From positions 827,069 through 891,068 of the forward strand of contig CANLZP010000001.1 of assembly GCA_947495695.1 (NCBI GenBank): 64,000 nucleotides of DNA. The letters are read 5' to 3'. The notes beneath the pieces were generated by a model. That model searched no databases and was not told where the DNA came from. It saw only the letters and a program-made list of their open reading frames with translations. This document shows positions 7,503 through 60,015 of the stretch, piece after piece. Every line of letters begins with the position of its first letter. Position 1 is the stretch's first letter. Source of the stretch: an uncultured Erythrobacter sp. (GTDB lineage Bacteria > Pseudomonadota > Alphaproteobacteria > Sphingomonadales > Sphingomonadaceae). The position numbers were made by a program, and so were the translations under genes.

Positions 7503-8015
7503 ATGAACGAGATATCAGTAAAGCGAGTGGAGCAATGCGACCGGGCCGAGTTGGTCGCCGCCAATCGCGCCAGTCGAGAACTTCACCATCCTTGGGTTCG
7601 GCCGTTCGACGACATGGAAGGGTTTGCGAGCTATCTTGCAAGCATGGATGGCGAGAGAAATGTCGGTCTGGTTGCGCGAAAAAAAGATGAAGGAAGCGTG
7701 GTTGGGGTGCTCACACTAAGCCAAATTGCGAGAGGAGGTTTTCAAAGCGCATATTTGGGATTTTACGGGACCATTAATCAAGTTGGTCGCGGCCATATGA
7801 CAGCGGCTGTCCGGGCGACGCTGGATTATGCGTTTGGGGTCCTCGACCTGCATCGTGTCGAAGCCAATGTCCAACCAGCCAATCTGCGTTCGCTTGCTTT
7901 GATTAAGCGGGTAGGATTCCGCAAAGAGGGGCTATCGCCAAAATATCTGTCGATAGGTGGCCAGTGGTGTGACCACGAACGCTGGGCGATATTGTCTGAC
8001 GAATGGGACGGGTAA
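7503..8015 (+). CDS. GNAT-family N-acetyltransferase, RimJ/RimL-like
   Basis: The 170-residue protein has the GNAT fold of the RimJ/RimL type. Visible are the central strand SAYLGFYGTINQVGRGHMT, with the acetyl-CoA loop in the degenerate form VGRGHM, then YAFGVLDLHRVEANVQPANLRS and a C-terminal GFRKEG segment. Such enzymes acetylate N-termini of ribosomal proteins or small amines, and the substrate here is unknown. The start chosen is ATG 7503, just after GTGAGG. A GTG at 7494 overlapping the previous stop is an alternative. It probably forms an operon with ung and the zinc-finger gene. Confidence 0.85.
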   Translation: MNEISVKRVEQCDRAELVAANRASRELHHPWVRPFDDMEGFASYLASMDGERNVGLVARKKDEGSVVGVLTLSQIARGGFQSAYLGFYGTINQVGRGHMTAAVRATLDYAFGVLDLHRVEANVQPANLRSLALIKRVGFRKEGLSPKYLSIGGQWCDHERWAILSDEWDG

Positions 8016-8056
8016 CGCTAATCTAACAGCAATTCGGCTGCTGATGAATCTTCTGG

Positions 8057-9493
8057 TCAACGCGGCAGTTCGCTCGCGCCCATCAGAGCTTCGTCAACGC
8101 TGCGCGCGCATTGGCGCCCCTCGCGGATGGCCCACACCACCAATGACTGGCCGCGCCGCATGTCACCGCAAGCGAACACCTTGTCGCGGCTCGTCGCATA
8201 ACGCAGCGTATCGGCGGCAACATTGCCGCGATCGGTCAATTCTACGCCAGCCTGGTCGAGCAGGCCGACTTTTTTGGGGCCAACAAAGCCCATCGCGAGC
8301 AGGATCAAATCAGCCTCGAGGGTGAACTCGCTGCCTTCCACATCCTGCATCTGGCCGTCTTTCCATTCCACCCGAACGCATTCCAGGCCGGTGACGGTTT
8401 CACCGTCACCGATCACGCGTTTGGCCAAAACGGCCCAGTCGCGCGCAACGCCTTCTTCATGGCTGGAAGATGTGCGCATCTTCAGTGGCCAATCGGGCCA
8501 GGTCAGGGCTTTGTCTTCCTTTTCAGGAGGTTGTGGCATAATTTCCAGCTGGGTGACGCTTTTCGCGCCCTGCCGGTTGGATGTGCCAACGCAGTCAGAA
8601 CCGGTGTCACCGCCACCGATCACAACCACATGCTTGCCCGTTGCGGTCAGCGATCCACGCGGCGCAGCGCGCACTTCATCATCGCCTGCATTGCGTTTGT
8701 TCTGCTGGGTCAGGAATTCCATCGCGAGGCGAACGCCGGGCATCTCTGCGCCGGGAATGGCCAGCTGACGGGCATCTTCTGCGCCGCCCGACAGAACGAT
8801 CGCGTCAAAGTTTTCTTCCAGGCTTTGGAAGGAGACATCCACGCCCACTTCCTTGGAGGTTTTCAGCTCAACCCCTTCTGCTTCCATTTGGACAGCGCGG
8901 CGGTTGATCAGCGTCTTTTCCATTTTGAAATCGGGGATGCCATAGCGCAGCAAGCCGCCGATCCGATCGCTCTTTTCAAACAGGGTGACGCTGTGTCCGG
9001 CGCGCGCCAATTGCTGGGCGCAGGCCATGCCAGCCGGACCCGAACCGACCACCGCGACAGACTTGCCGGTCTTTTTCTCGGGAACTTGCGGCTCGATCCA
9101 GCCCTCTTTCCATCCGCGATCAACAATCGCGCATTCGATCGATTTGATCGTGACAGGTTGATCCACGATGTTGAGCGTGCAGCTCGCCTCGCATGGGGCG
9201 GGGCAAACCCGGCCGGTGAACTCGGGGAAATTGTTGGTCGAATGCAGCACGTCGAGCGCGTTCTTCCAATCACCTTCATAAACCAGATGATTCCAGTCCG
9301 GGATGATGTTGTTCACCGGGCAGCCGTTGTGACAATAAGGAATGCCGCAATTCATGCAGCGCGATGCTTGGCTTCTCAGCGTGTCATCATCGGGCTGGAC
9401 CACAAATTCGCGGTAATTGTTCACCCGCTCTTGGGGATCGAGATAGTCACGCTCGCGGCGATCAAGTTCGAGGAAGCCTGTTTCTTTACCCAT
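8057..9493 (-). CDS. gltD: Glutamate synthase (NADPH), small subunit
   Basis: The beta subunit of GOGAT oxidises NADPH and feeds electrons through FAD and iron-sulfur clusters to the large subunit. The 478-residue protein shows N-terminal cysteine clusters [14 protein letters not shown] near residue 42 and CPAPCEASC near residue 100. An FAD-binding [18 protein letters not shown] and an NADPH-binding [15 protein letters not shown] follow, with [20 protein letters not shown] at the end. It starts five bases after the gltB stop, so the two subunits are made from one message. Nothing is missing. Confidence 0.97.
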
Positions 9494-50640: not shown

Positions 50641-52401
50641 TTAGGCTGCCTTACTCGCCCTGCCCCGGCGCTTGCGTCGGTCTTCTTTGCGCCTGACAAA
50701 GGCCTTCAGTTTTTCACTCGTGGTGCGGTTGCGGCCCTGATTTTTGGCTTCGTAAAGCAATTTGTCGGCACGGGAATAAATGTCCTCAAACACGGCGTTT
50801 GGCATCGCTTGTAACGGCGCTGTCAGCATGCCCATGCTGGCGGTGACCAATATTTCGAGTTCGGGAACGGCTTGCGCCACGCGGATCGGGATGGCGCTGC
50901 GTAGCTTCTCCGCTCTAATTTGTGCCTTCTCACCTCGCAGCAAAAGCAAAAATTCCTCGCCGCCCATCCGGATCGCTATACTGTCTGTGTCGCTATCAAG
51001 AATATCGGCCACGACCTTCAGCACTTTGTCGCCAGTCGCGTGGCCGGCAGTGTCATTGACCAATTTAAAGTGATCCAAATCGATCAGGCCAAAGGTTTCA
51101 TATCCTGCGCGGTGCAAATCCAGAAAGCGGGCGTCGATGGCGCGCCGATTTAGCAATCCGGTCAGCGGATCACGCTCGGACAATCGCTCCAACACCTTGG
51201 ATTCGGTTACCGCCTCGTCGCGTTGACGGCGCAGGTCAACGAAGCGGTCGGCAACGCTGAGCGAGATGATGACCACCTCAAGCCCGGTAGCGACAAAAAT
51301 CAGCTGATCCAGAGAGGATGGTCCGGTATAGGCCCCCAACCCGCGCAGCAACCGTTCTACCGAGGCGAGAATGATCGGCGTCCATGCTACGGCCACAAAG
51401 CGAGCGCTTCTGCTGCCCCGCATCAATGCCCCGATCAAGGCTACCGATATGACGGCGATCACCGGCAGAAATGCGTAAAAATATCCGCGATCATCAAATG
51501 GCTGGGTGGTGTGGAACTGCAAGGCAAAAAAGCCGGGCACACAAATGGTCCAAATCCCGGTGGCGACGGTCAGGCGCTGCATCTGGCGCGATTGGGCCCC
51601 GTCCTCCAAAAACGTCACCAGAAACAAGGCTGATAGTCCAACCCCGATCGCCCAACCCATTGCTCCAACGATTGAAACCACGGCCACGGGCAATTGCACA
51701 AAGACACCAATCAACCCTCCGGCGAAGAGGACATAATTGATCATCGACAGCACCATCAGGGCATGCAGCAGAACGAACTTTTCGCGCAGGACAATGAAAA
51801 AACTGATGTCGAACAATAGCGGCAGCACGAGCATGCCGACCACGATGGCCAGCAAGATTACATCCATCATGGCCCAGCTGGAGGCCTCCGGATCGGAGGT
51901 CAGTTGAGCTTCGGTGAGAAGCGGCAGACTGTGCGGCCGTTCGATCCGAACAATGATGGCTTGGGTGTCTTGGGTTATCTCCGGCAGGTCCAACTGAAAC
52001 AGCGGACCGGCCCCAAACACTCTACCATCTGCCTCGGCCCATTCCACCGTGCGAACGCTGCCATTGCCGGTAACGGCGCCGAATGTGATCGATTTGTGCC
52101 GTGCGATCCGGGTAAAGAAATAACGCGGGGTGTCGGCTTCGGCCCATTGCCGGGCATCAAAACGCAGCCAGGCGACTGGCTGATCGGCGCGCCAGCCATC
52201 GTCGGAACAGATCCATTTTGCGTCCGTGGCCGCCATATCGGAAAAGCTGGTCGAAAGGCCGGATGTTGCATGGCATTTGGAAGAAAATGATAGCTCAGTC
52301 TCGTGCGCAGACGCGGGGCTCGCCAGCGCTATGGCCAGCATCGCCATAACGCAGCACAAAAAGCGCCACCAAGGTGCGCTAAAGAGATGGCCCCGTCCCA
52401 T
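50641..52401 (-). CDS. Membrane diguanylate cyclase with 7TMR-DISM sensor domain
   Basis: The enzyme makes cyclic di-GMP from two GTP. The 586-residue protein has a signal peptide ending near ASA-HE, an extracytoplasmic DISM-type domain (about residues 35-165), seven membrane helices (about 170-390) and a GGDEF domain. The active-site loop reads GGEEF near residue 480 in IAIRMGGEEFLLLL, and LTGLLNRRAID and DLDHFKLVNDTAGH are intact, so it should be active. The product-inhibition RxxD site that normally sits five residues before the loop is absent, so feedback control may be weak. It is divergent from the porin gene. Confidence 0.92.
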   Translation of the reverse strand: MGRGHLFSAPWWRFLCCVMAMLAIALASPASAHETELSFSSKCHATSGLSTSFSDMAATDAKWICSDDGWRADQPVAWLRFDARQWAEADTPRYFFTRIARHKSITFGAVTGNGSVRTVEWAEADGRVFGAGPLFQLDLPEITQDTQAIIVRIERPHSLPLLTEAQLTSDPEASSWAMMDVILLAIVVGMLVLPLLFDISFFIVLREKFVLLHALMVLSMINYVLFAGGLIGVFVQLPVAVVSIVGAMGWAIGVGLSALFLVTFLEDGAQSRQMQRLTVATGIWTICVPGFFALQFHTTQPFDDRGYFYAFLPVIAVISVALIGALMRGSRSARFVAVAWTPIILASVERLLRGLGAYTGPSSLDQLIFVATGLEVVIISLSVADRFVDLRRQRDEAVTESKVLERLSERDPLTGLLNRRAIDARFLDLHRAGYETFGLIDLDHFKLVNDTAGHATGDKVLKVVADILDSDTDSIAIRMGGEEFLLLLRGEKAQIRAEKLRSAIPIRVAQAVPELEILVTASMGMLTAPLQAMPNAVFEDIYSRADKLLYEAKNQGRNRTTSEKLKAFVRRKEDRRKRRGRASKAA

Positions 52402-52587: not shown

Positions 52588-52605
52588 CTGTCATGAAAAT
52601 GTCAT
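52588..52605 (+). promoter_or_regulatory. Pho box of the porin promoter
   Basis: CTGTCATGAAAATGTCAT consists of two 7-base half-sites (CTGTCAT, ATGTCAT) with a four-base spacer, an 11-bp period as in known PhoB sites. A -10-like TATATC follows at 52616-52621, about 10 bp from the box, the spacing expected when PhoB replaces the -35. The porin ATG is at 52655. Confidence 0.75.
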
Positions 52606-52654
52606 TTGCCAATCCTATATCCGCCTTAATTGAACGACTGGGGATCCAATTCAT

Positions 52655-54043
52655 ATGAACGTCAAAGCATCTGCATTTGCGCTTGCAACTGCTCTTTCCT
52701 TTGCTCAACCTGCCTTTGCTCAGGATGATGGCAGCACAACAGAGGCGCTGGCTGAAATGCGCGCCCAGATGGCCGCCATGGCAGCACGTATCGATGCTCT
52801 GGAAAGCGAATTGGCTGAAGCTGAGGCCGAAGCCGAATCTGCCAGCGCTGCGGCAAGCGCCGCCAATGAAGCTGCTGTTGCAGCCAGCGCCATGGCCAGC
52901 GAAGCCCATGCAAAGGCGGATAAATTGCCGGCAATTGCGTTTAAGGGTGCGCCCGAAATCAAGGGTGAAGGTGGCTGGAGCTTTAAGCCGCGCGGCCGAC
53001 TGCAATATGATGCAGGCTTCACCAGCGCTCCATCATCCACCGGAGCATCGGACGGGTTTGGCAATGAAGTGCGCCGCGCTCGCTTGGGCGTTTCAGGCGA
53101 TATGCCGGGCGGTTTTGGCTATAAATTCGAAGTGGATGTGGCGGGCAGCGATTTGACCGTCACCGACGCGATCATCTCTTACAAAGACGGCAAGACCAAA
53201 ATCTCCGCAGGCCAGTTCAACAACTATCAAAGCCTGGAAGAGCTAACCTCCAGTCTGCACACATCATTCATTGAGCGCGCCGCCTTTACCGATGCGTTCG
53301 GCTTTGAACGCCGGGTTGGCCTGGGTGCGGAATTTTCCGGCGACACTGTCCGCGTCCAAGCGGGACTGTTCACTGATAATATGGACGATCTGTCGAACAA
53401 AAACTGGGGCGCTGATGCCCGCATCGTGGCCAATCCCAAGGTTGGCGATGCGACGCTGCATCTGGGCGCGTCGGTTCACTACACCGATCTGGAAAGCGGC
53501 GAGAGCGTGCGATACCGCCAGCGCCCACTGGTCCATTTCACCTCTGAGCGTTTCATCAACACCGGCAATCTGGATGCCAGCAGCGAATTTGGGCTGGGCG
53601 TTGAAGGTGCGGTAATTGCCGGCCCGTTCCACGCTGTGGCCGAGGGCTATTGGCAGAATGTGAACATGCCGGTCGGGATGGACGACCCGACATTCTTCGG
53701 CGGCTATGTCGAAGGCGGCTATTTCCTGACCAAGGGTGATACGCGCGGCTATAAAAGCGGCAAGTTTGACCGCACTAAGCCTGCCAATCCGGTTGGCGAA
53801 GGCGGCATTGGTTCGGTCCAACTGAACCTGCGCTATGACTATCTCGACCTGACCGACAATGGGGTCATCGGAGGCACACAAGACGGTCTGTTCGTGTCGC
53901 TGGTCTGGAAGCCGACCGATTACACCATGCTGCTCGCGAACTATGGCAAACTGTCCTACGATGATGCTGTATTTCCCACCGCGGGTGGCGACACATCTTA
54001 CAGCGTCGACAGTTTCGGACTGCGTGCACAAATTGACTTCTGA
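52655..54043 (+). CDS. OprO/OprP-type porin, phosphate-regulated
   Basis: A 462-residue outer-membrane porin of the phosphate/polyphosphate-selective family. A signal peptide ends near AFA-QD. A coiled coil at about residues 28-90 (AEMRAQMAAMAARIDALESE) trimerises such porins. A 16-stranded-type barrel follows, with PRGRLQYDAGF, VRRARLGVSGDMPGG and the final strand SVDSFGLRAQIDF ending in Phe. The Pho box 50 bp upstream indicates induction when phosphate is scarce. Selectivity cannot be proved by eye, and the arginine ladder of OprP was not mapped. pstS lies 100 bp downstream. Confidence 0.88.
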   Translation: MNVKASAFALATALSFAQPAFAQDDGSTTEALAEMRAQMAAMAARIDALESELAEAEAEAESASAAASAANEAAVAASAMASEAHAKADKLPAIAFKGAPEIKGEGGWSFKPRGRLQYDAGFTSAPSSTGASDGFGNEVRRARLGVSGDMPGGFGYKFEVDVAGSDLTVTDAIISYKDGKTKISAGQFNNYQSLEELTSSLHTSFIERAAFTDAFGFERRVGLGAEFSGDTVRVQAGLFTDNMDDLSNKNWGADARIVANPKVGDATLHLGASVHYTDLESGESVRYRQRPLVHFTSERFINTGNLDASSEFGLGVEGAVIAGPFHAVAEGYWQNVNMPVGMDDPTFFGGYVEGGYFLTKGDTRGYKSGKFDRTKPANPVGEGGIGSVQLNLRYDYLDLTDNGVIGGTQDGLFVSLVWKPTDYTMLLANYGKLSYDDAVFPTAGGDTSYSVDSFGLRAQIDF

Positions 54044-54062
54044 TCACCATAATCCGAACGTC

Positions 54063-54080
54063 GTGTCACACAGCTGTCAC
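54063..54080 (+). promoter_or_regulatory. Pho box of the pstS promoter
   Basis: GTGTCACACAGCTGTCAC has two half-sites TGTCAC with an 11-bp period. A -10-like TTATCC follows at 54090-54095, nine bases downstream. It lies 64 bp before the pstS ATG, in the porin-pstS gap. Together with the box at 52588 it suggests both genes respond to PhoB. Confidence 0.75.
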
Positions 54081-54143
54081 GTCGCTGCCTTATCCGCGTC
54101 ATAATTTCGAACTTACGAATTTTCATTCTTACGAGGTCACATC

Positions 54144-55190
54144 ATGAAACCTGTAAAAACAGCCTGTTTTCTCGCCATCTCTTCGCTCGCTCTTGCCGCA
54201 TGTGGCGGCGGAGGCAGCGGCTCTGGCTCACGCGATTCTGTTCGCGTGGTCGGTTCTTCCACCGTGTTCCCTTTTGCCAAAGCTGTGGCCGAGGAATTTG
54301 CCCGCTCAAATTCTGAATTCAAATCACCTTTGATCGAATCAACCGGCAGCGGCGGCGGCATCAAGCTGTTCTGTTCGGGCGTCGGTGCGGACACCCCCGA
54401 TATCGCCAATGCATCGCGCCGCATGAAGCTGTCAGAATTTGAAGGTTGCCTGGAAAATGGCGTGACCGATGTGATTGAAATCCAAGTGGGACTGGACGGA
54501 ATTGCCTTTGCTGAGTCGAAAGAAGGTCTCGAGCTCAATCTGACACCCAAGATCGTTTATGAAGCGCTGGCTGCCAATCCCTATGGCGGCGAGCAAACCA
54601 ACCAGAAATGGTCCGATGTTGATCCTTCGCTGCCCGATCAGGAAATTCTGGTTTATGGCCCGCCATCCACTTCGGGTACCCGCGACGCGTTGAAGGAACT
54701 GGTTCTGGAAGTTGGCTGTGACAGCAATCCAGAGATGGCCGCGATCGAGGAAGAAGACAAAGACCGCCACCAGCAAATCTGCACCGAAGTGCGTTCCGAT
54801 GGCAAATATGTCGATCAGGGCGAGCAAGACAATCTGATCGTTCAGAAGATCGAGAGCAATCCGCGCGCCATTGGTGTGTTTGGCTATTCCTACCTTGAGG
54901 AAAATTCCGACAAGGTGAAGGGGCTGCCCATGAACGGTGTCCAGCCAACATATGAGAATATCTCAAACTTCTCTTATCCGGGTGCTCGTCCACTGTATCT
55001 CTATGCCAAGAAGGCGCATCTCGACGCCATTCCCGGCTTCCAGGAATTCCTGCTTCAATGGACCCAGATGTGGGGCAATGGCGGACCGCTCAGCAAGATC
55101 GGTCTGGTGCCTTCACCGGGTGAGGAAATGGAAAAGAACCGCATCGCCGCGACCGAGTTCACCACTCTGACGGTTGATGATCTGAAGTAG
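54144..55190 (+). CDS. pstS: Phosphate-binding protein PstS, lipoprotein form
   Basis: The high-affinity phosphate receptor of the Pst ABC transporter. The 348-residue product starts with MKPVKTACFLAISSLALAAC, a lipobox with Cys20 instead of a plain signal peptide, so it should be membrane-anchored. The phosphate-binding loop VVGSSTVFPFAKAVAEEF and ESTGSGGGIK are present, followed by GTRDALKELV. The mature region GGGGSGSGS is a flexible linker. The gene has its own Pho box and a putative terminator after it, so it is a single unit. pstC, pstA and pstB are not in the window. Confidence 0.94.
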   Translation: MKPVKTACFLAISSLALAACGGGGSGSGSRDSVRVVGSSTVFPFAKAVAEEFARSNSEFKSPLIESTGSGGGIKLFCSGVGADTPDIANASRRMKLSEFEGCLENGVTDVIEIQVGLDGIAFAESKEGLELNLTPKIVYEALAANPYGGEQTNQKWSDVDPSLPDQEILVYGPPSTSGTRDALKELVLEVGCDSNPEMAAIEEEDKDRHQQICTEVRSDGKYVDQGEQDNLIVQKIESNPRAIGVFGYSYLEENSDKVKGLPMNGVQPTYENISNFSYPGARPLYLYAKKAHLDAIPGFQEFLLQWTQMWGNGGPLSKIGLVPSPGEEMEKNRIAATEFTTLTVDDLK

Positions 55191-55273: not shown

Positions 55274-56092
55274 TTAGCCTTGTTCGCGACGCTTTTGCAA
55301 AATGCCTTGCGTGCGGGTAAAATCGCCCGGATTGTCGACATCGATCGGCGCATCAGCAAAGGGCATGCTGATGATCTTCAAAGAGATATTCCAGCGGCGC
55401 GACAGGTAATCGGCAATGCCCTGCACCGTTGCCAGGCGGAATTTGTACATCAGCATCACCGGCAGTCCGAACGCCTTCAGGATGCGGATGGGGCGCTTGC
55501 CAAACTGGCCGCCCGTTTCAAACACTTTGGCCGCTTCAACCGCCTTTGGGGTCAGCGCGGCATAAAGGTTGCAGCTGGACCAACCACCATCCTTCAATTC
55601 ATGGAAAGCGCGCTTGCCATCGGGATAGGCTTCCAAAATGGTTGCCGCCGGCGTCATGGCAACGGCGCCATCCAAGGGTTCGTTCAAAATGGCCTTGCAA
55701 AAATGGTCGAACATCTCGGTCGTATGCAGTGCATTATCGCCGGTGGATACGACCAGGGGATAGGGGTCTTGGATCGCTTCAGCGGCCCCCGTGATGCTGG
55801 CGAACAGATTGTTGCCTGCGGGCAGAAAATGGACGCGGCCTTCGTCCATCATGGTTGAAACCAAGGGGATCTCGCGCAAGATGTCTTCACGTTCGATCGA
55901 GATATAGATATCGCTGGCATATTTGCTGGCGGCAATTTCGCGCACCACGCGTTGCAACATGATTTCACCATCCAGCTCGATCAAGCATTTGTGGCTCTTG
56001 TTCTGCAAGGCGGCCACGGCATCTTCGGGGCCAGCGCGGCTGGCGGCCAGCACCAGAACTTTTACCGATCTTGCGGTGTCGCTGCTATCCAC
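55274..56092 (-). CDS. Nucleotidyltransferase-like protein, MobA/GT-A-type
   Basis: A 272-residue protein of the GT-A nucleotidyltransferase fold. It starts VKVLVLAASRAGPEDAV, where the usual LAxGxGTRM signature is altered and a segment is inserted before the K of SHKCLIELDGEIML. The metal-binding aspartate is in VVSTGDNALHT, and the late DNPGDF motif agrees with MobA-like proteins. The usual product would be an NDP-linked compound (sugar, cobamide or alcohol phosphate). The GTG start has GGGGGAG eight bases upstream. It is the last gene of the minus-strand group with thiE-like, ftsK and MmgE/PrpD genes. Function unknown. Confidence 0.75.
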   Translation of the reverse strand: MDSSDTARSVKVLVLAASRAGPEDAVAALQNKSHKCLIELDGEIMLQRVVREIAASKYASDIYISIEREDILREIPLVSTMMDEGRVHFLPAGNNLFASITGAAEAIQDPYPLVVSTGDNALHTTEMFDHFCKAILNEPLDGAVAMTPAATILEAYPDGKRAFHELKDGGWSSCNLYAALTPKAVEAAKVFETGGQFGKRPIRILKAFGLPVMLMYKFRLATVQGIADYLSRRWNISLKIISMPFADAPIDVDNPGDFTRTQGILQKRREQG

Positions 56093-56148: not shown

Positions 56149-57552
56149 TCAGGCGGCCTGCATAGCCTGTGTCAGGTGACGCACTGGTTGGCCAGCGTCA
56201 AGCTCGCCCAATCGCGCCATCAGCGCATCCTTTTGCACCGCGCCATGCGTTGCATCAAGACAGGTTTCCAGCTTGGCCCAGATTTGCGCGTCGCTCATCG
56301 GCACAGCCTTGCTGCCCACCGGCATGGGAACAGCTGTGGTCACGCTCTCGCCCGAGGTCAGCATCAGATGAACTTCGGTGGGGAAATCGCTTTCCAACTG
56401 CTCAACATATTCCTTGGTGATTTTGGGCATGAGCGCTCGGACTTCAGAGCGTTGGATCGCCTGTTCCGTGTAATCCAGCAAACCGATGGCGCGATCATGC
56501 ATGACCGCTGCCAGACTATATTCCAGGCTGAATTTCGCTTGCGCAGGGGTTTGCGGATTCTCATGCATCAGATTGCGCAGATGCGCAGCCGGTGCGCGCA
56601 CCAGCACGCGTTCGATCTGGGGCTCGGACAGATCATGCTGCTCCATCAGAGACAGCAACCCATCCAGCGCGCGATGCAGGCTGCCACAATTGGGGAAGCG
56701 TTTCACCTTCAACCCATGCTCGACAATGTGCAGCGGCGATCCAACGTCGGTGGTGGCATAACGCATGGTCTGGCCATGCTCGGCCTTACCCTCCATCTCC
56801 ACCGCCAGCTGGTCCACATCGCGACCCACCATCAACCAGCGCAATCCATTTTCGCCGTCCAGTGTATGACTGCCAGCAGTGATGCCCGCGCGCGCAAACA
56901 GCGCAGCCTGAACGCCGCCGGCTGCGGCCAACCCTGCGTGAAGCGGTTTAGTGTCGGACCCGAATTGGCTCATGAAGCCGCCAGCCAAACTGGTGGACAG
57001 CGATATGGCGTGGGATGCCTGTTGGCCATCCTGCCCCAGCATCCGCGCGCACCCTGCTGCTGCGCCAATCGCGCCCAGCGTTCCGGTGGCATGCCAGCCG
57101 CGGCTGCGATGGAACGGGTTTACCGCTTGGCCAACCAGCCCCATGATTTGTAAGCCGGTGATATAGCCATCAAGCAAAGCATCGGTGGTGGTATCTTCTG
57201 CATCACCAATTGCCAGCAGTGCGGGCACCAGAACAGCAGAGGCATGCGCCTTGGCCGGATCGAAATTGTCATCAAAATCCAGCGCATGGGCGGCGGTGCC
57301 ATTGAACAGTGCCGCCATCGGTGCAGGCAAAGTCTGGCTGTGCATGGCGGCATGGCATGCGCCGTTGCCCCAGGATGATACCACGGGCCACAGCTTTGCG
57401 GGTGCGCTGTCATCGGCACCTGCCATGATGCAGCCAATCGTGTCGATTACGCTGCGGCGAGCGATGTGCAGCGCATTGTCGGGCCAATCGCGCGGCGCAT
57501 GGGCCAGCCAATCGCCATAGGCGGCGAGCGGGGAGGGGTGCGTGTCGCTCAT
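56149..57552 (-). CDS. MmgE/PrpD family protein
   Basis: A 467-residue protein of the MmgE/PrpD (2-methylcitrate dehydratase-like) superfamily. Recognisable segments are IDTIGCIMAGADDSAPAKL, AHALDFDDNFDPAKAHASAV, WHATGTLGAIGAAAGCARML, and KRFPNCGSLHRALDG. Members dehydrate 2-methylcitrate or isomerise itaconate-like acids, but this one is not beside prpB/prpC and its substrate cannot be set. ATG 57552 is chosen, with TTG 57561 as an alternative. It lies 30 bp downstream of ftsK on the same strand. Confidence 0.85.
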   Translation of the reverse strand: MSDTHPSPLAAYGDWLAHAPRDWPDNALHIARRSVIDTIGCIMAGADDSAPAKLWPVVSSWGNGACHAAMHSQTLPAPMAALFNGTAAHALDFDDNFDPAKAHASAVLVPALLAIGDAEDTTTDALLDGYITGLQIMGLVGQAVNPFHRSRGWHATGTLGAIGAAAGCARMLGQDGQQASHAISLSTSLAGGFMSQFGSDTKPLHAGLAAAGGVQAALFARAGITAGSHTLDGENGLRWLMVGRDVDQLAVEMEGKAEHGQTMRYATTDVGSPLHIVEHGLKVKRFPNCGSLHRALDGLLSLMEQHDLSEPQIERVLVRAPAAHLRNLMHENPQTPAQAKFSLEYSLAAVMHDRAIGLLDYTEQAIQRSEVRALMPKITKEYVEQLESDFPTEVHLMLTSGESVTTAVPMPVGSKAVPMSDAQIWAKLETCLDATHGAVQKDALMARLGELDAGQPVRHLTQAMQAA

Positions 57553-57582
57553 TTGTTGCAATTGCCTGACAAAGCTACACCT

Positions 57583-59946
57583 CTAAAGCGGGTTGCCGTC
57601 CTGATCGCGGAAGATCTCGCGTCGCCCAACATGATTGGCGGGACCGACCAGCCCTTCGCTCTCCATGCGTTCGATCCATTTGGCAGCCGTGTTATAACCA
57701 ACGCCCATCTGGCGTTGCAGCCATGACCCCGATGCCTTCTGGTTCTCGATCACGATCTGGCAGGCTTGACGATATTTGCGCTCGTCCGGATTGTCCGATG
57801 CGGTCAGTTCGTCCTCGAACATCAGACCGCCGCCATCTTCCGGTTCTTCGGTAACGGCGTCGACATATTCAGGCTTGCCTTGGGCGCGCCAGAAGTCGGC
57901 CACATGCTCAACCTCGTCATCCGACACAAAGGGACAATGCACGCGGATCATCGCGCCGGTGTTGGGTTTATACAGCATGTCGCCTTTGCCCAACAATTGC
58001 TCGGCACCCTGCTCTCCCAAAATGGTGCGGCTGTCGATCCGGCTGGTCACTTTAAAGCTGATGCGGGTGGGAAGATTGGCTTTGATAACCCCGGTGATCA
58101 CATCGACCGAGGGGCGCTGTGTGGCCATGATCAAGTGAATGCCCGCCGCGCGCGACTTTTGTGACAGGCGCTGGATCAGAACCTCGATCTCCTTGCCCAC
58201 TGTGACCATCAAATCGGCCAATTCGTCCACGATCAGAACGATCTGCGGCAAGGGTTCGTAATCGAGCTGTTCTTCTTCGTGCAATTCTTCGCCCGTTTCC
58301 GGATCGAAACCTGTTTGCACGCGCCGTCCCAGCGGTTTGCCCTTGGCTGCCGCGGCGCGGACCTTCTCGTTAAATCCGCCGATATTGCGCGAGTTGACGC
58401 TGCTCATCATGCGATAGCGGCGCTCCATTTCTTCCACCGCCCACTTCAGCGCGCGCACAGACTTATGCGGTTCTGTCACCACTGGCGAGAGCAGATGGGG
58501 AATGTCGTCATAGCTGGCCAATTCCAGCACTTTGGGATCGATCAAGATCATGCGGCACTCTGCCGGAGTGAACCGATAGAGCAGCGACAAGATAATACAG
58601 TTCAGGCCCACCGATTTACCCGAGCCGGTGGTGCCTGCCACCAGCAAGTGAGGCATGGCGGCAAGGTCGGCGATGATCGGTTCGCCAGCGATGTCTTTGC
58701 CCAAAATGATGGGCAGACTACCCCGGCTTTCGGCAAAGGCAGCGCATGCGGCCAGCTCTTTCAAGACCACCATCTGGCGATCGGCATTGGGCAGCTCGAT
58801 CCCCATCACCGTCTTGCCCGGAATGGGCGAGACGCGGGCTGAAATCGCCGACATATTGCGGGCAATGTCTTCGGCCAGTCCAACCACTCGGCTGGCTTTG
58901 ATGCCCGGGGCTGGCTCCAATTCATACATCGTGACGACCGGACCTGTGCGCACTGCGGTGATCTCGCCCTTCACGTTGAAATCATCCAGCACATTTTCCA
59001 GCAGGCGAGCATTACGCTCCAGCGCCATCTTATCCAGCTTAGGACTATTGTCGGTTGGCGGATCGCCCAGCAAATCGAGGCTGGGAAGCTCGAAATTGGC
59101 GAACATATCGCGCTGCTTGGTCTTGGCCATCACGGCCTTTTTGGGCGGAGCAGAAGGGTCCGTAATTTCCGGTGCACGGCGCGGAGAGGATGGTTCGGGC
59201 CGCTTCTCAGACCCCTTCTCGCGCTTGGTCGCCCTGGCCTTTTTGGGCAGAGCCATGCCGGTGTCATCGTCCACCACTTGCTCGCCGCGCAGCAAGGCAA
59301 TTCGCTTGATGATAAATTCGGGCAAGGTCAGCAATCCGCGCCAGTCGATGGCGAACACGCGGGTCAGCGCGGCCACGCCGCCTGCCAGGCTGGCCACGGC
59401 GAGCCCCATGATCACCCAGCCCGATGCATCCTCGCCAAATCGCGCTCCGACGGCCTCGATTGCGGCTGCTCCCAACAGACCGGACAGGCCACCCGCTTGC
59501 GCAGGCAAAGTGCCGCCTGGGCTGTCGAAGGCGAGCGAGAGTACGGTTGCGATCAGCACGATCGCTAGCACCAGCAAGCTTAGCGGGAGCCACCAACGGG
59601 TGGCGTATTCTTCGTCCTCATGCTCGTAATCGCGCCACAATTTGCGCGCGCTGATATAAAGCAAGGGCAGCAGCAAGATGGAGGGTAGCCCAAACAGAAA
59701 CAGCACCCGATCCGATGCCCACGCGCCCGCGGCGCCCATCCAGTTTTGAATGTCATCGCCCGATGCGGCGGTAGAGGGCGAGGGATCAGTTTGGGTATAG
59801 CTAGCCAGCGAAAGGGTCAGAAACACCAGCATGGCGAGCAGGATCGCCGCGCCCGCCATTTGGGCCGCCCGGCGCATTGACCGGCGAAAGGCGGCGCGCC
59901 AATCGGCCTTCCCCTTCCTAGTGCTAACCGCTCGTGTTGCCATCAT
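57583..59946 (-). CDS. ftsK: DNA translocase FtsK
   Basis: FtsK moves DNA at the division septum and activates XerCD at dif. The 787-residue protein has four N-terminal membrane helices and a Pro/Lys-rich linker. The motor domain has Walker A VAGTTGSGKSVGLNC near residue 437 and Walker B IVLIVDELADLM near 574. The C-terminal gamma winged helix that reads KOPS sites spans about residues 722-787 (GYNTAAKWIERMESEGLV). The start is ATG 59946, with GGGGA upstream. It lies between a thiE-like gene and MmgE/PrpD, not next to lolA as in many Proteobacteria. Confidence 0.96.
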   Translation of the reverse strand: MMATRAVSTRKGKADWRAAFRRSMRRAAQMAGAAILLAMLVFLTLSLASYTQTDPSPSTAASGDDIQNWMGAAGAWASDRVLFLFGLPSILLLPLLYISARKLWRDYEHEDEEYATRWWLPLSLLVLAIVLIATVLSLAFDSPGGTLPAQAGGLSGLLGAAAIEAVGARFGEDASGWVIMGLAVASLAGGVAALTRVFAIDWRGLLTLPEFIIKRIALLRGEQVVDDDTGMALPKKARATKREKGSEKRPEPSSPRRAPEITDPSAPPKKAVMAKTKQRDMFANFELPSLDLLGDPPTDNSPKLDKMALERNARLLENVLDDFNVKGEITAVRTGPVVTMYELEPAPGIKASRVVGLAEDIARNMSAISARVSPIPGKTVMGIELPNADRQMVVLKELAACAAFAESRGSLPIILGKDIAGEPIIADLAAMPHLLVAGTTGSGKSVGLNCIILSLLYRFTPAECRMILIDPKVLELASYDDIPHLLSPVVTEPHKSVRALKWAVEEMERRYRMMSSVNSRNIGGFNEKVRAAAAKGKPLGRRVQTGFDPETGEELHEEEQLDYEPLPQIVLIVDELADLMVTVGKEIEVLIQRLSQKSRAAGIHLIMATQRPSVDVITGVIKANLPTRISFKVTSRIDSRTILGEQGAEQLLGKGDMLYKPNTGAMIRVHCPFVSDDEVEHVADFWRAQGKPEYVDAVTEEPEDGGGLMFEDELTASDNPDERKYRQACQIVIENQKASGSWLQRQMGVGYNTAAKWIERMESEGLVGPANHVGRREIFRDQDGNPL

Positions 59947-60015
59947 GCATTCCCCGGACCGGTCTGGTCCCCTCATCTCGTCCAAATGCAAGAATCGCAG
60001 AGCGCGGACTCGCCG

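Follow-up and report, generated by a model that had tools for sequence, protein, structure and literature searches.

A porin and pstS gene pair with Pho-box-like promoters, apart from the pstCAB permease cluster, in an uncultured Erythrobacter sp.

Background

Two neighbouring genes, one for an outer-membrane porin and one for the phosphate-binding protein PstS, lie in the window (the whole 64-kb stretch of DNA analysed, from an uncultured Erythrobacter sp.), where a tblastn search with the genome's own proteins found none of pstC, pstA and pstB. This raises the question of which permease, if any, the pair serves and how it came to its present site (Table 1). An earlier note on this DNA had taken the two genes for a capture module under phosphate control, reaching from the outer membrane to the periplasm and separate from permease genes that it placed outside the window; none indeed adjoins pstS.

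Table 1. Features of the porin-pstS locus and of the regulatory genes in the distant permease cluster (coordinates are those of the window unless L040 is given)
Feature	Coordinates	Strand	Remarks
7TMR-DISM/GGDEF diguanylate cyclase (flank)	50641-52401	-	Divergent from porin; borders the empty site in L184
Pho box before porin, CTGTCATGAAAATGTCAT	52588-52605	+	13/14 consensus bases; aligned with the L115 promoter
-10-like TATATC	52616-52621	+	10 bp past end of porin Pho box; consensus resemblance alone
Porin_O_P-family outer-membrane porin	52655-54043	+	462 aa; PF07396, E 1.5e-56
Pho box before pstS, GTGTCACACAGCTGTCAC	54063-54080	+	11/14; register kept in three aligned relatives
Third half-site CTGCCTT	54085-54091	+	With 54074-54080 forms overlapping box 54074-54091, 11/14
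-10-like CTTATC	54089-54094	+	8 bp after 54063-54080 box; consensus resemblance alone
Alternative -10-like CATAAT	54100-54105	+	8 bp after 54074-54091 box; consensus resemblance alone
PstS, phosphate-binding protein of PstSCAB transporter	54144-55190	+	348 aa; PF12849, E 1.6e-42
Lipobox L17-A18-A19-C20 (LAAC), codons in pstS	54192-54203	+	From sequence
Gly/Ser linker GGGGSGSGS, codons in pstS	54204-54230	+	Acyl-cysteine to folded domain; from sequence
FtsK (flank)	57583-59991	-	Other border of the common site
PhoR gene	L040 5931-7139		Cluster neighbour
PhoB gene	L040 11508-12197		Cluster neighbour

Results and discussion

The porin and PstS

Both genes match the families claimed for them. PstS is the only PF12849 protein of the genome, although its score with the NCBIfam model TIGR02136 (146.7 bits) is under the cut-off of 206.6. 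Its closest solved relative by sequence is 9jwy (E 1.1e-69), the PstS of Candidatus Pelagibacter HTCC7211. A structure model of medium confidence (mean pLDDT 71.8, with residues 1-27 below 50) was used in a fold search that was led by phosphate-binding proteins (TM-scores 0.3 to 0.66), 9jwy again being first; the comparison with 9jwy took in the binding domain alone. With family match and fold search both giving a PstS-type phosphate-binding fold, the window PstS probably binds phosphate for uptake. The stretches 55274-56092 and 56149-57561 sit between pstS and the FtsK gene.

The porin scores 192.7 bits with PF07396, against a cut-off of 20.9, and is the single match to this family in the genome. 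By sequence it has no detectable relative among solved structures and gave no alignment to OprP, and its structure model, built from five sequences, has a mean pLDDT of 35.8, so that phosphate selectivity is argued from family name and context; passage of phosphate through the porin is accordingly putative. OprP and OprO of Pseudomonas aeruginosa share with it the Porin_O_P family and a phosphate-starvation-type promoter, but the window porin differs from them in having no sequence match to any solved chain. It carries a signal peptide and an N-terminal alanine/glutamate-rich, coiled-coil-like stretch, which is not known from OprP. For this stretch (window 52655-52930) a low-confidence model predicts a long helix (residues 26-78), and there is weak resemblance to the coiled coils of Lpp (E values from 0.42 upwards).

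Pho boxes upstream of both genes

The two 18-bp boxes described in the earlier note are exactly where it had put them, and its -10-like sequence about 10 bp after each was found as well. Each is a direct repeat with an 11-bp period upstream of one of the genes. Half-sites of Pho boxes are spaced by four nucleotides, and the pattern scored here was CTGTCAT-N4-CTGTCAT, with 14 consensus bases; the core CTGTCAT is that given for Escherichia coli (PMC4415409). In a pattern scan of the whole 2.74-Mb genome only two sites had ≤ 1 mismatch, against about 0.25 expected (control scaled by mismatch counts, with uniform bases). One is the porin box, which is second best genome-wide to the other, a perfect match. 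At ≤ 3 mismatches there were 178 sites genome-wide and 62 for a reversed control pattern. Sites as good as the pstS box numbered 4 in the window and 4.74 were expected in shuffles; since shuffles give equally good sites as often, this box by itself is not above chance. The note's expectation that both boxes would score better than random sequence thus holds for the porin box in this genome and for both boxes across relatives, but not for the pstS box alone.

The relatives compared fall into loci in which pstS lies beside pstC (joined) and loci in which it does not (split), each with or without a porin gene. In split loci with a porin the best site reached at least 10/14 before pstS in 23/23 (12% for permuted motifs) and before the porin in 17/23 (9% for permuted motifs), 6/23 having no porin site of 10/14; the observed means were reached by 2 (pstS) and none (porin) of 419 permuted motifs. 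For pstS the number reaching the mean was 0 of 419 in joined loci without a porin and 1 in split loci without one, while in the control regions ahead of the GGDEF and OYE genes it was 78 and 365. Joined loci with a porin gave 1 for the porin and 8 for pstS, and only 5 of these 14 loci have a pstS site of at least 10/14, suggesting that pstS has a weaker box of its own where it follows the porin in a joined cluster.

Upstream of the window pstS two overlapping boxes compete (Table 1). The spacing to CATAAT would make 54074-54091 the true one; this was set aside on alignment with the three nearest pstS promoters aligned, of L115, L074 and L075, where the bases kept are TGTCACA...TGTCA, which belong to the 54063-54080 box, and TA at 54091-54092. 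Both boxes could bind PhoB. The genome encodes PhoB and PhoR, and the porin and pstS may well be under phosphate control as members of the PhoB regulon.

Further Pho-box-like sites occur elsewhere in the genome. The sole perfect box (L041:7691-7708; G000:C3:349691) is 176 bp upstream of an ORF for an SLT transglycosylase (7884-8501), after which comes a large ORF resembling a conjugation ATPase; on the opposite strand is a 547-aa lipoprotein-like ORF that has no Pfam match and two further Pho-box-like sites upstream. Three half-sites (L042:7550-7578; G000:C1:1157550) precede a gene for a PhoX-type alkaline phosphatase (7607-8938, PF05787), which is likely another regulon member.

An intact permease cluster without pstS

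The check proposed in the earlier note, a search for pstCAB-phoU-phoBR elsewhere, led to an intact cluster on another contig (C2). The PstB of the genome is encoded there (401.1 bits, over the TIGR00972 cut-off), and around its gene (L040) the order is recJ, phoR, pstC, pstA, pstB, phoU and phoB, names beyond the Pfam domains and the PstB model having been assigned by comparison. All of PstC, PstA and PstB are therefore encoded in the genome, and the cluster has no pstS. The gap between phoR and pstC is 219 bp, and a Pho-box-like sequence, TTGTCATAAAACCGTCTT, lies 10 bp past the phoR stop codon. A profile search of the genome for the transporter Pit (PF01384) gave no match. Because the porin and PstS are single copies, Pit gave no match and the cluster has no pstS, the window pair most likely provides the PstS that is absent from the PstCAB cluster, along with the transporter's sole Porin_O_P, and serves this distant permease.

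That pstS and pstCAB are on different contigs is no obstacle, as adjacency is not required: Caulobacter crescentus likewise has pstS split from pstC-pstA-pstB-phoU-phoB, both being activated by PhoB (PMC11208175). Phosphate is described as entering C. crescentus via porins and being carried by periplasmic PstS to PstCAB (PMC5590869), the same outline as is proposed for the window pair. The description of pstS in the first of these reports mentions neither a porin partner nor a lipid anchor; the window PstS has a porin partner and a predicted anchor.

The distance of the pair from the permease genes and the lipid anchor of its PstS would also suit a self-standing device for capture from outer membrane to periplasm, independent of PstCAB. 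Such a device is very unlikely, however, given that the genome encodes no other PstS, that the pst cluster elsewhere has no pstS and that the orthologous pstS is beside pstC in 45/89 loci of the family. The module of the earlier note therefore survives as a gene pair with Pho boxes but not as something separate from the permease, since the sole PstS likely serves the intact PstCAB.

Joined and split arrangements among relatives

The comparison covered 89 Sphingomonadaceae loci, from 84 genomes and 4 named loci that possibly repeat species; they were picked from the best-listed matches and so lean to close relatives. Kept out of the 89 were L114 (whose PstS is 100% identical to that of the window), L119 to L123, five named loci of uncertain placement, and 16 loci (15 genomes) of other families. 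In 26 of 249 Sphingomonadaceae genomes there was no PstS match.

Four arrangements were found: joined without a porin (31 loci), joined with a porin between phoR and pstS (14), split with a porin (23) and split without one (21). The joined cluster with a porin has the order phoR-porin-pstS-pstC-(pstA)-pstB-phoU-phoB in L116 and L117 (Qipengyuania) and in L084. As pstS is beside pstC in 15/16 loci sampled outside the family but within the order, joined is likely the older state, and the move would have been from joined to split.

The split loci have a site in common. Surroundings with S9/M24 peptidase and/or FtsK genes were seen in 42/44 split loci and 0/45 joined loci; the 44 include L166 and L173, which appear to be arranged differently. 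In these two loci a Porin_O_P gene 50 to 54% identical to the window porin lies in the same stretch, away from the common site. The pair is missing from the common site in 4/4 joined genomes examined: the GGDEF gene directly faces FtsK in L184, other DNA lies between in L185 and L187, and in L186 FtsK was not within the stretch examined. Conversely, full-length pstC was found elsewhere in 26/26 split genomes searched, and 2.5 kb over phoR-pstC held neither porin nor pstS in 20/20 split genomes fetched, phoR and pstC being 85 to 188 bp apart. A site of at least 10/14 precedes pstC in 15/21 (these 20 and the window genome), compared with 11% for permuted motifs, 0/419 of which scored as high.

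The reading preferred here is that the window pair broke away from a once-joined pst cluster and now occupies a fixed second site. For the whole set the simplest account may be that porin and pstS moved once, that some species afterwards lost the porin and that three acquired tandem pstS. The last concerns the porin-less split loci L080, L083 and L087, where a second pstS, 52 to 58% identical to the window PstS, lies right behind the first. In porin-less split loci (for example, L078 and L088 to L097) the GGDEF gene is divergent from pstS with a Pho box in the common promoter region, an arrangement through which phosphate might affect cyclic di-GMP.

That several independent moves or interspecies exchanges, rather than one relocation, brought pstS to the common site is a real possibility, though not the favoured one. 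On the PstS tree, 13 switches between joined and split have to be assumed, and both states occur within the genus of the window (L084 and L180 are joined). Yet one site is common to nearly all split loci, the tree is poorly resolved (23/93 inner branches starred) and a single clade of all split rows was not rejected (AU p 0.0736, for a group picked after seeing the tree).

The same loci bear on the porin, which could be a general Porin_O_P member, or one for another substrate, merely standing beside pstS. Its lack of a sequence match to solved porins and the 52/89 family loci with no porin beside pstS would fit this, but it is rather unlikely for a porin with its own Pho box, the second best in the genome, that is flanked by phoR and pstS in 14 joined loci and is still together with pstS after relocation in 23 loci. 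A porin for phosphate, moved together with pstS, is the preferred reading.

The predicted lipid anchor of PstS

PstS begins with a hydrophobic signal followed by the lipobox that the earlier note had pointed out, as in a lipoprotein processed by signal peptidase II. With a permissive pattern the lipobox was found in 89/89 sampled Sphingomonadaceae loci and in 0/16 sampled loci of other families; among the named loci outside the 89, PstS of L119, L120, L121 and L123 has it and that of L122 does not. From the cysteine to the conserved VGSST there are 11 to 22 residues (median 15, 88 loci), a linker too short to span the periplasm.

Anchoring to the outer membrane, with PstS beside the porin as a capture plate, is quite unlikely, as such a linker would not let it reach PstCA, which the sole PstS should reach. 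Residue +2 might favour this placement: it is Gly in the window protein, not Asp, the retention signal of E. coli lipoproteins (PMC2996285), and Asp is rare at +2 in joined loci (1/45) and split loci with a porin (6/23). Mature window PstS starts with CGGG, however, which is listed among the inner-membrane retention signals of P. aeruginosa (PMC2996285) and could serve as one here too. PstS is probably lipid-anchored in the inner membrane beside PstCA.

Asp at +2 is found in 15/21 split loci without a porin, and the residue was considered as a membrane switch tied to porin loss. This was dropped: the tree has 3 independent supported pairs for the porin and 5 for the joined state, none of which can reach significance, and shared descent explains the counts equally well.

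Lipoprotein PstS is known in mycobacteria (PMC3095447), and in these and other Gram-positives PstS is lipid-anchored as it appears to be in the window. The difference is that here the host is Gram-negative, with two membranes, and the protein is its sole PstS. Among the matches listed from the open-licence literature there was no paper on lipidated PstS in Sphingomonadaceae or on relocation of porin-pstS.

Conclusions

A putative PhoB-regulon porin and a PstS predicted to be lipid-anchored, both probably once in the joined cluster, very probably feed the distant PstCAB permease. On phosphate starvation PhoB would switch on the porin and pstS from their own Pho-box promoters; the porin would pass phosphate through the outer membrane, and the anchored PstS would bind it in the periplasm and pass it on to PstCA-PstB, the permease whose genes stand with phoR, phoU and phoB on a different contig. 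Formerly the two genes would have been part of a phoR-porin-pstS-pstCAB-phoU-phoB cluster before settling at their fixed second site. The function of the pair is ordinary, and most of this is known biology with a clade-specific twist; the new details are the apparent relocation of the pair and the predicted clade-wide lipidation of PstS.

What looked like a lone porin and pstS becomes an evolutionary series at one site, from joined to joined with a porin, split with a porin and split without one. A bolder proposal, and a rather doubtful one, is that in Sphingomonadaceae the sole PstS no longer diffuses freely; tethered by its lipid and short flexible linker, it would form with the phosphate porin a fixed relay running between the outer membrane and the permease, encoded as a movable two-gene unit; if so, the pair could change dose independently of the permease.

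The locus also suggests that a large Gram-negative family anchors its phosphate-binding protein by lipid. The E. coli model takes PstS to be a soluble shuttle, and one that controls Pho signalling as well, through PstSCAB. An anchored PstS would therefore alter how both uptake and sensing of phosphate work in Sphingomonadaceae.
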